Origin: Candidatus Mcinerneyibacteriota bacterium
GTDB taxonomy: Bacteria; AUK180; JAQVHJ01
Direction of reading: 5' to 3'
DNA length: 12,112 nucleotides
Assembly (NCBI GenBank): GCA_030630935.1
Contig: DAOVMD010000047.1
Span: 1 to 12,112, forward strand
Under the pieces are notes generated by a model. The model did no database searches. It had not been told where the DNA came from and saw only the letters and a program-made list of their open reading frames with translations. Below are positions 8,812 through 12,030 of the stretch, one piece after another. The stretch's first letter is position 1. Every line of letters begins with the position of its first letter. The position numbers and the translations under genes are program-made.

Positions 8812-9687
8812 ATGAAAAAGACAATGTTATTATTTATGAGTCTAATATTTGTTCTAGCCCTTACTTCGTGTCATCATGTTATCAAAGGTGAAAAGATGCT
8901 AATGTCTAATGAGCAGGAGCTTAAGCTTGGAGCTCAAGTTCACAAGGAGATTTTAAAAGAGTTTAAGCTTTATAAAAATCCTCAGGTAAAAAGTTATGTT
9001 GTACGTGTTGGGAAGAAGATTGTTAGTAAATGTGACAGGAAGGATATTCCATATAAATTCTTTGTACTTGATACTGATATGGTAAATGCTTTTGCAGGAC
9101 CTGGTGGATATGTTTATGTTACGACAGGAATGTTAATGTTTATGAAGAATGAAGCTGAGCTTGCTTGTATTTTAGGTCATGAAGTTGGTCATATTACCGA
9201 GCGTCATGCAGCCAAGAGAATGCGTGAAGTTATGGGATATAAAATTTTAGCGATTGGTTTAGCTGTCGGTGGTGTTGATATGGGTGTTGAGATACTTAGC
9301 CTTGGTATGAACCTGGCCTTAAATGGTTATTCCCAGAAGAATGAATATGAAGCAGACGAGAAAGGGATTCTCTATGCTAATAGAGCCGGATATAATCCGC
9401 ATGCAATGCAGAATCTCTTTGTTCGGCTTGAACAGAAGTCAAAAAATAAAAATGAATATAATACATTTAATAGAATGCTTTCAAGTCATCCCCCGACAAG
9501 GTCGAGAATTAATAGGGCACATAAGATTCAAGAGAAACATAATATGATGGGACTAAATGCCCCCAAGTATTATGCAAAACAATATAGGCAGATTAAAAGT
9601 ATAATTTCCAGGGACAGTGGAGGTCTTCGTAAGAACCCGAAGATAAAAAAGGGTAACCGAAAACCTGGTAGGAATAAAAAAAGATAA
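8812..9687 (+). CDS. M48-family zinc metalloprotease, lipoprotein
   Basis: A protein of 291 residues with a lipoprotein signal: basic start, hydrophobic core at 5-18 and lipobox LTSC with C20 as the lipidated residue. The active site is HEVGH at 123-127 with E178 in NEYEAD as the likely third zinc ligand, the arrangement of the peptidase M48 Oma1/BepA/LoiP-type proteins. These act in the periplasm or on the inner face of the outer membrane in protein quality control. The segment at 145-170 is Gly-rich and hydrophobic, as in relatives. The C-terminus is a short basic tail (KKGNRKPGRNKKR). No TPR domain follows, so it is more LoiP/YcaL-like than full BepA. It has its own promoter and an excellent ribosome site. 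Confidence 0.94.
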   Translation: MKKTMLLFMSLIFVLALTSCHHVIKGEKMLMSNEQELKLGAQVHKEILKEFKLYKNPQVKSYVVRVGKKIVSKCDRKDIPYKFFVLDTDMVNAFAGPGGYVYVTTGMLMFMKNEAELACILGHEVGHITERHAAKRMREVMGYKILAIGLAVGGVDMGVEILSLGMNLALNGYSQKNEYEADEKGILYANRAGYNPHAMQNLFVRLEQKSKNKNEYNTFNRMLSSHPPTRSRINRAHKIQEKHNMMGLNAPKYYAKQYRQIKSIISRDSGGLRKNPKIKKGNRKPGRNKKR

Positions 9688-9725
9688 AGCGGGAAGCGTC
9701 CTTTCCTAAACCCAGGGAGAGGGCT

Positions 9726-10682
9726 ATGAGATTTTCAACCAACAACCTCCTCATTCTTCAGGGGAGAGTAATTTCAAAACCGTTATTAATGTTAACTTCA
9801 AACAGGAAGAAGCTTCTTAAATTTCTTGTTAAGGTTCCCAACAAAGAATTAACGACCAAGAGTTTAATTCCGGGGTCATACGAAACCATTTCTGCATACT
9901 CCATAGGTTCCAGGGCAGAATTGTTTTATGAAGGGGTGAATAAGGGAAGAGATGTAATTATTTTGGGGAGGTTAGTTAATATCCGGTCCCGTCAAAAGAT
10001 CTATACTGACCTTGGGATTGATTTAATTATAAGAACCCTTATCCAGAAAGAATCTTTATACCTGAAAGCTACACCGGTGAAACGGATTAAGATTAAGGAA
10101 AAGATATTTTCAATATTCCCTGACAAAGTATTTCCCGGTCAACCCCGGGATGAGATTTTGATTCTTAATCTCAGGAAGATCAGGGTATTAAATAATTACA
10201 GAAACGTAATAGAGTTAACCGGAAATATTTCTAAAAAAGATATTCGAATTTACAAGAACCGGATTTCGTTTGATATAAAAATCAAGCGAGACCAATTACT
10301 CTTTGATAAGAATCTGATAACTGATCATTCAAAGTTTGATATTATTAACGTCTCCTTTAAAAGAGTTGATGCCGAATCTGTTTTAAATTTTGAATTTGAC
10401 CAGATTAAGATTAAGATAATTGGCAGGCTTTTTAAGAAGACCAGGTTAGCAATTGAATATGATAAAAAGAGAATTCAGAAACTTCTTAATGATTTCAAAA
10501 ATGTCAGGAATAACGACAGTGCGGGATTTAAGAGAATAATGAATGATATAAAAAAGTTCGAGAAAACTCCGGTTATGAATTATTCTTTAAAAGTAAAAGC
10601 CAGACATTTAATAATTATTCGGGGAACATTCAAATGCGATAGGACAGAACATTCCCACGCACAAGCGTTAAGCCCGATATAG
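9726..10682 (+). CDS. SSB-like protein with two tandem divergent OB folds (putative)
   Basis: A protein of 318 residues with no family I can name outright. Residues 7-106 follow the bacterial SSB plan: NLLILQGRVISKP, a strand KFLVKV, YETISAYSIGSRAEL, then GRDVIILGRLVNIRS and closing strands. Residues 160-298 repeat the plan: NVIELTGNISKKD, FDIKIK, FDIINVSFKRVDAES, QIKIKIIGRLFKK, with a Lys-rich insertion at about 245-283 before the last strand. Two OB folds in one chain are known from Deinococcus-type SSB. The usual acidic SSB C-terminal tip is missing, and the last 18 residues run into GC-richer repeat-like DNA, so the end may be secondary. GGGAGAGGG precedes the ATG, and the gene lies 38 bases after the protease gene with which it probably shares a transcript. 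Single-strand DNA binding is inference. Confidence 0.72.
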   Translation: MRFSTNNLLILQGRVISKPLLMLTSNRKKLLKFLVKVPNKELTTKSLIPGSYETISAYSIGSRAELFYEGVNKGRDVIILGRLVNIRSRQKIYTDLGIDLIIRTLIQKESLYLKATPVKRIKIKEKIFSIFPDKVFPGQPRDEILILNLRKIRVLNNYRNVIELTGNISKKDIRIYKNRISFDIKIKRDQLLFDKNLITDHSKFDIINVSFKRVDAESVLNFEFDQIKIKIIGRLFKKTRLAIEYDKKRIQKLLNDFKNVRNNDSAGFKRIMNDIKKFEKTPVMNYSLKVKARHLIIIRGTFKCDRTEHSHAQALSPI

Positions 10683-10850
10683 GTGTAGATGTCCAATGAT
10701 CCATTATTTGCGGAGCCCAGAACCCTAGCAAAGCGCGTGGTTCCGGGTCATTGTCCCGCCCTTTTGGGTACGGGATTCCTTCACTACGTTCAGTCACGAG
10801 CAGAGCGCGGCAATCTGGGAGTTTGCTCCCTTTCCCATTTATGATTTATG
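10683..10850. repeat. GC-richer non-coding block with hairpins
   Basis: From about 10640 to 10840 the base composition rises well above its surroundings and no supported reading frame is present. CCCGCCC (10755-10761) pairs with GGGTACGGG (10766-10774) through a TTTT loop, leaving a two-base TA bulge. GGGAG (10817-10821) pairs with CTCCC (10826-10830) around TTTG and is followed by three T. The composition and clustering look like a dispersed intergenic repeat; only one copy is in the window, so this cannot be shown. Either hairpin could help end the protease/SSB-like transcript. It is not a recognisable tRNA. Confidence 0.5.
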
Positions 10851-10975
10851 ATTGATAATTATTAATTGATAAACCGATTTGCATTATATATTAAAATGCT
10901 TTTGTTCAGAGCAATATTTCTTAGTAGAAACTTTTATATTATTTATTCAAAGACAAAGGAATTGTTTGCCAAGCA

Positions 10976-11173: not shown

Positions 11174-11215
11174 CGGCACCCTATTGCCCAAGTCATAAGT
11201 CATAGGTCGGCACCC
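11174..11215. repeat. CGGCACCC direct repeats and AAGTCAT tandem heptamers
   Basis: CGGCACCC occurs at 11174-11181 and again at 11208-11215. Between them AAGTCAT is repeated twice in tandem (11190-11203) and a third, partial unit follows (AGGTC). The right-hand copies form the 3' end of the minus-strand reading frame that ends at 11200, whose last codons (KSGADL and stop) come from this repeat. It looks like a small intergenic repeat abutting that gene. Confidence 0.55.
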
Positions 11216-12030
11216 GATTTTATTTTATTAATTAAATTAGATATGTTTATAATTATTAAAAAGTTTGAACTTATTATCCTTTTTGATGATATAAAGTAAT
11301 TACCATCAAAATAGCTATTGTATCCACAATTAATCTTTTTATAATCATATAAATATCCATAAACTTGTAATTGAATTATATCTTTTACATTAAATGTTAA
11401 TGATAAACCATAAATAGGAACAATCCTATTTAATTTTACTTTTCCACCGACTATATTTGTTTCTGAAGACATTTCTGGCAAAAATATTTTTATAAAATTA
11501 TTACTACAACCTAAATGTAATGAAAGATAAAAGCTCATTATTTTTAACATAACAAATTGATAATCTACCATAATCTGGTTATTGTTAAGTACTGCTTTAG
11601 GTACACACCAGCAATTAAAATCATCAATAATTTCTATATTTTTAAACAATAATTCTTGATAACTTAAATTAAGGTAATTCATATAGAATATTTTATTCAA
11701 AGGATATTTCAATATAAATCCTAACCTATTTTTATAATCCTGATATTTATTATCTTTATCCATTAAAATTGAATTGCTTTTAATTATTCCTAAAAATATA
11801 TCTCTTCTATTTTTATTTGGTTTTTTAAATTCTAAATTATTATTACTTTTAGTTAAACTTAAACTTTTAAGATAATAATTTTCAAAAATAATTCCAATAA
11901 AGAAATTATCTAATAGAAAATCAGTTTTAGTTTTATTCTTATTATCAATATTATTATCCTAAAATCCCAAAAAATTATAACTATATAGTTTAAATAAGCA
12001 AAAATAGACGGAAAAAACGAAATAAAACAA
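11200..12030 (-). pseudogene. Broken AT-rich gene, possibly an exported beta-rich protein
   Basis: The longest open part starts at ATG 11763-11761 (187 codons), but the same frame stays open and protein-like upstream with no ATG, GTG or TTG until an in-frame TAG at 11961-11959. Beyond the TAG the frame continues to a TTG at 12030-12028 as a hydrophobic stretch like a signal peptide (FYFVFSVYFCLF). Read through the TAG the gene would have about 276 sense codons. The body alternates short hydrophobic and polar runs with many Tyr, Asn and Ile, as in outer-membrane beta-strand proteins, but I recognise no family. Its C-terminus (KSGADL) comes from an intergenic repeat, so the 3' end also looks displaced. 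The base content is far more AT-rich than the neighbouring genes, which may mean foreign origin. TAG ends intact genes here, so recoding is unlikely. Confidence 0.6.

Follow-up and report, generated by a model that had tools for sequence, protein, structure and literature searches.

The nearest described counterparts of the SSB-like protein reported here are the bacterial SSBs (PF00436), such as SsbA and SsbB of B. subtilis, with which it appears to have an SSB-type OB topology in common but from which it differs in its two predicted halves per chain, in the apparent helical insertions after strand 4, in its basic charge and in the lack of both the acidic tip and the stacking aromatics. Two OB folds per chain, as predicted here, occur in the SSBs of Deinococcus-Thermus; those, however, are main SSBs with an acidic tip, whereas the present protein is an accessory one that exists beside a canonical ssb, is tipless and seems to bear insertions in both halves. 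PriB, as is predicted for the SSB-like protein, is an SSB-derived OB fold without an acidic tail, although it has one OB only and its gene belongs to the rpsF-rpsR operon, while the protein described here would be a double OB of 318 aa whose gene comes after that of an M48 protease. With regard to expression, the leader of ISPpu9, an element of the IS200/IS605 type, forms a structure at the 5' end of the mRNA that likely includes the ribosome-binding site, as is the case here, and weakening of this structure leads to more translation (PMC8450116); the ISPpu9 leader is long and is the target of an antisense RNA, whereas here one leader type is common to the SSB-like, ComM and Y1 genes. Y1/RAYT proteins process single-stranded DNA, and the host roles of those RAYT groups that lack REP palindromes are open (PMC6006769).

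The window, that is, the whole stretch of 12,112 nucleotides that was analysed, corresponds to contig C120 of G000, a genome assembled to 80% completeness in 471 contigs, and the sole genome of the same family available for comparison was G001 (72% complete). The SSB-like gene is genuine, as judged from the ORF call and from an ortholog in identical gene order in G001, and it adjoins the M48 protease gene as originally predicted, the ORF running from an ATG at 9726 to a stop at 10682 and starting after a gap of 38 nt past the M48 stop. The ortholog (L005:5553-6461, minus strand, 302 aa) shows 33% identity across 296 residues (E 4e-54), and both genomes share the arrangement serS, Fe-alcohol dehydrogenase, radical SAM, M48, SSB-like. 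Since the neighbouring proteins are 53-74% identical between G000 and G001, as against 33% for the SSB-like protein, the SSB-like gene is the fastest evolving among them; identities of 48, 60 and 40% at codon positions 1, 2 and 3 form the pattern expected from selection at the protein level. Because the M48 sequence is much better conserved (74%), the adjacency of the two genes by itself tells little about function. Five further genomes, which belong to the same class but to a different family, do not have the SSB-like gene. About 20 nt 3' of its stop codon begin the pieces of a mosaic of short dispersed repeats (~10700-10910), which are 87-90% identical to copies on several other contigs, and further on the minus strand holds, at 11200-11763, an A-T-rich ORF of 187 aa without a convincing Pfam match.

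Table 1. Coordinates of the SSB-like gene, its parts and the leader sites (window positions unless a contig is named)
Feature	Position	Strand	Basis
M48 metalloprotease, lipoprotein-like N-terminus, upstream neighbour	8812..9687	+	Pfam M48 E 2.9e-34; syntenic ortholog 74% identical
Leader: CGGGAAGCGTCCTTT and hairpin, ribosome-binding site in 3' arm, then ATG	9687..9728	+	Fold; motif sharing; covariation
SSB-like protein of 318 aa with two predicted SSB-type OB halves in tandem	9726..10682	+	ORF; syntenic ortholog; pI 10.3; no Trp
First OB half with strands 1 to 4, residues 4-86	9735..9983	+	Pfam SSB 22.2 bits; hhalign P 2e-10; reverse retrieval of SSBs
Lys-rich insertion, first half, residues ~95-128	10008..10109	+	Unsupervised alignments opposite second-half hairpin; helices in low-confidence model
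Second OB half, residues 150-300	10173..10625	+	AF2 model pLDDT 76; Foldseek and VIA-align SSB matches; weak sequence support
Helical hairpin insertion, second half, residues 247-276	10464..10553	+	AF2 model, local pLDDT 72-79
Strand 5 of second half, residues 289-298	10590..10619	+	AF2, local pLDDT ~88
Lineage-specific C-terminal tail, not in ortholog, no acidic tip	10626..10682	+	Ortholog alignment
Leader sites, G000	Window 9687-9728; C95 (L062 1501-1540); C338 (L066 1501-1547)		
Leader sites, G001	C12 (L063); C179 (L069); C345 (L073); C389 (L065)		

The evidence that the first half is SSB-like is strong. PF00436 matches residues 7-85 of the window protein with an E value of 1.5e-4 and 22.2 bits, and the ortholog scores 22.2 bits alone and 24.3 bits in a genome search, both proteins remaining under the curated cut-off of the family (26 bits). 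Against a canonical SSB profile built from the SSBs collected in this analysis, hhalign gave the first half a probability of 97% (P 2e-10) and a score of 61.5, compared with at most 20.6 in column shuffles (0 of 200 as good), and it placed residues 4-86 on SSB residues 2-84 without a gap, from one end of strands 1-4 to the other. In the reverse direction, the two-sequence profile recovered canonical SSBs from unrelated genomes; these profiles are thin because two orthologs of the SSB-like protein are known and no more. Despite the sub-threshold Pfam score, the profile-profile comparison makes homology clear, and the SSB pattern claimed for the first half by the original prediction proves to be beyond chance at residues 7-85.

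The second half, for which Pfam returned no match, is with moderate confidence a more diverged copy of the SSB-type OB, the sequence evidence being weak. Compared with the first half it gave P 0.024 (5 of 300 shuffles as good), compared with SSBs P 0.038 (5 of 200) and compared with both jointly P 0.032 across 136 columns (5 of 300), the same register from strand 1 to strand 5 being found each time; the internal repeat that had been read from LQGRVISK/LTGNISKK and ILGRL/IIGRL is accordingly in register but statistically weak. Residues 150-300 were modelled from an alignment that held both halves of both orthologs together with 17 SSBs clipped after strand 4. With these SSB rows in the alignment, the AF2 model reached a pLDDT of 76 and placed strands at residues 161-169, 179-187 and 204-212, a helix at 213-220 and a strand at 226-236, giving in total five strands and a helix in the SSB order; strand 5 emerged although the SSB rows contributed no letters to that region of the alignment. 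A Foldseek search with the model ranked B. subtilis SsbA first (E 5e-5), SsbA and SsbB being the top matches, while VIA-align gave Z ~11 against SSBs and included PriB chains among its structure matches. Since SSB rows were present in its alignment, the model counts as support and not as proof. The second OB fold of the original prediction is in keeping with this model; the full-length model from the two orthologs had a pLDDT of 36.

In each half, strand 4 (GRL/GRI/GNI) is followed by ~45-50 residues and then by strand 5, so that the Lys-rich helical insertions would occupy the place at which canonical SSBs have the L45 loop. The insertion of the second half appears as a helical hairpin in the AF2 model, whereas that of the first half, which would separate strand 4 from a likely strand 5 (residues ~142-150), is placed by the alignment and by a low-confidence model. 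A Lys-rich insertion had been pointed out in the original prediction and is indeed present, but it is not unique, as one is placed between strands 4 and 5 of both halves. Because the insertions match in this way, the unit that was doubled probably carried a strand 4-5 insertion already.

The genome contains a canonical ssb elsewhere, on contig C124 within rpsF-ssb-rpsR-rplI-dnaB (135.9 bits, pI 4.9), the product of which terminates in the acidic tip ...DSNDDVPF, and the SSB-like protein is therefore an accessory paralog. The search for a canonical ssb hence agrees with the earlier view that the window protein is not the main SSB and is encoded away from rpsF-ssb-rpsR, its gene following M48 instead. 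The absence of an acidic, partner-recruiting tip is likewise confirmed by the C-termini, which read ...ALSPI in the window protein and ...ETAIFY in the ortholog, and the ortholog has no counterpart of the final 22 residues of the window protein. In G001, the SSB-like gene was the sole SSB match and no canonical ssb was seen, most likely as a consequence of an assembly gap. Both orthologs are basic, with a pI of 10.3 for the window protein and 9.7 for its counterpart. As far as the alignment places them, the counterparts of W40, W54 and F60 of E. coli SSB carry no aromatic side chain, which applies to both halves in each ortholog, and ssDNA binding is therefore not to be assumed. Strand 3 does hold Tyr or Phe two residues off the stacking positions (Y52 and Y58 in the window protein, F and Y in the ortholog), and these might substitute for the canonical stacking residues.

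Further relatives of the SSB-like protein were not returned by tblastn with the two-sequence alignment against GTDB genomes, nor by the same alignment among viral contigs, and a profile search of 386 genomes yielded canonical SSBs and noise but no additional ortholog. The adjacent radical-SAM protein, used as a query, led only to the related genome G001. The SSB-like protein was unmatched in NCBIfam, PHROGs and PADLOC and had no sequence match among solved structures.

What is new here, and the part most worth following, is the leader in which a hairpin encloses the ribosome-binding site and which is shared with other genes. Between the M48 stop and the SSB-like ATG, both G000 and G001 carry GGRAAGCGTCCTT and then the ribosome-binding-site hairpin, GGGRAAGCGTCCTT being the conserved 5' side that introduces it; in the window, the arms lie at 9698-9707 and 9715-9724, and the leader model R1 matches at 9687-9726. 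A 12-mer search pattern, derived solely from the two SSB-like leaders and searched in the two genomes, also precedes a ComM/YifB gene (G000:C95) and one Y1 transposase gene in each of G000 and G001, the identity of these downstream genes being taken from Pfam. The raw count of the 12-mer was 7 against 5 for the control, which is no excess, and the case for the leader therefore rests on position and structure. With at most one mismatch to GGGRAAGCGTCCTT, about ten places were found in the two genomes, of which 7 of 10 lie 36-48 nt upstream of start codons, an outcome whose chance is on the order of 1e-13 if, as estimated, ~0.6% of positions fall in that zone; another 2-3 such places are away from gene starts. 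The seven leaders precede the SSB-like gene in both genomes, comM once and a Y1 (RAYT-type) transposase gene four times, all share their orientation relative to the gene, and all (7/7) have the ribosome-binding site within the hairpin. The SSB-like gene is the only one whose orthologs bear the leader in both genomes.

The leader arms vary in sequence while their pairing is kept. Among the seven sequences, both-sided changes occur in 5 of 12 base pairs (8 of 500 shuffles as good) and covariation amounts to 0.321 against 0.204 when shuffled (2 of 500 as high), both values coming from an alignment hand-padded to the hairpin structure, which favours that structure. Folding energies range from -10.9 to -18.6 kcal/mol, as against a mean of -4.4 kcal/mol at 52 other gene starts, some of the lowest-energy controls themselves appearing to be truncated leaders. 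Rfam recognized no family in the window, and a search of 60 genomes with the leader model gave no convincing site beyond the family. Since dprA and comEC have no leader upstream, the idea of a general competence regulon was rejected. An exact copy of the motif with a hairpin also occurs on the minus strand of G000:C191 (1526-1561; L064, L148) with no ORF behind it, perhaps as the remnant of a lost gene, and a further Y1 transposase gene of G001 (C271; L129, L149 ~2010-2066) has an apparently decayed leader (GGGAAAGTGTTATTC). Behind the Y1 transposase gene of G001:C345 stand tandem copies of a lipoprotein-like gene (L147, 1743-2453 and 2757-3488), the first 70 residues of which are identical.

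With slightly better than even confidence, we favour a lineage-specific accessory tandem-OB SSB paralog that binds nucleic acid and whose translational control is shared with other single-stranded-DNA genes. An SSB-type OB domain would have been duplicated within one chain, and the resulting protein would bind single-stranded nucleic acid mainly via its charge and would not recruit the usual SSB partners. Its gene probably shares the M48 transcript and is translated from it, the leader hairpin closing the ribosome-binding site, and the same type of hairpin would close those of the ComM/YifB gene and several Y1 transposase genes. Because the hairpin is common to these genes, production is probably low until it opens through a protein, an RNA or a change of temperature, at which point the SSB-like protein would be released jointly with the products of the other single-stranded-DNA genes. 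ComM acts in the branch migration of incoming DNA. The likely role of the SSB-like protein would then be in single-stranded-DNA traffic, for example transposition or uptake, and not in replication. It is more tentatively that we picture the tandem SSB-like protein, ComM/YifB and the Y1 (RAYT-type) transposases as one post-transcriptional set with one leader type, released by a single signal or binder that could possibly be the SSB-like protein itself or a transposase.

The protein could instead be an SSB relic that no longer binds nucleic acid and has a structural or protein-binding function, for instance as a scaffold or as an anti-SSB that pairs with canonical protomers. The non-aromatic equivalents of W40, W54 and F60 throughout both halves and both orthologs, the complete lack of Trp in the window protein and the fast divergence relative to the neighbours all fit this idea, which we nonetheless hold to be doubtful, as both orthologs retain a strong positive charge and the Tyr/Phe residues of strand 3 could take over stacking. 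That only the first half derives from an SSB and the second is no OB fold at all would agree with the silence of Pfam and with sequence tests reaching just P 0.02-0.04; we judge it improbable in view of the identical whole-domain register in three independent comparisons and of a model with SSB-ordered strands and helix, in which strand 5 was recovered where SSB rows were lacking.

Other alternatives concern the leader. An OB fold with a basic charge would suit an RNA-binding protein that regulates its own and related leaders, and would thereby be the regulator of the set; phage T4 gp32 offers a precedent for autoregulation, and the SSB-like gene is the sole leader-bearing gene orthologous across both genomes. 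Hairpins are also what Y1 transposases recognise, however, and these could fill the part of the binder just as well; such a regulator seems to us a long shot. A little less improbable, yet still unlikely, is that the leader is a REP-like or IS-end DNA element made by Y1 transposases and present at gene starts by chance, with no joint control. Y1 (RAYT-type) transposase genes do follow 4 of the 7 leaders, and palindromes often flank RAYT genes (PMC2817692, PMC3733652, PMC6006769), but the ~10 places at one mismatch or less in two genomes are far under the copy numbers of REPs, the GTAG tag is absent, the arms differ in sequence and still pair, and every leader stands in one orientation 36-48 nt upstream of a start codon, whereas RAYT-associated REPs have been described mostly downstream of genes (PMC3733652). 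CGTC-tagged REPs, which have loops of 4-5 nt and are unlinked to RAYT genes (PMC3733652), were also considered since the leader contains CGTC. They were ruled out by loop size, the leaders having loops of 7-21 nt, and by the pairing of CGTC, which is partly or wholly base-paired in the leaders.

In an accessory SSB, it is as a rule the tail that departs from the main SSB. In the present case it is the domain itself that appears doubled, with helical insertions at the L45 position and with the stacking residues missing, and if the SSB-like protein binds nucleic acid, as our preferred reading has it, its binding mode would differ from that of other SSBs. The leader shared by these genes of single-stranded-DNA enzymes hints at a small co-regulated set, and it provides a testable link among the SSB-like protein, ComM and the Y1 transposases.
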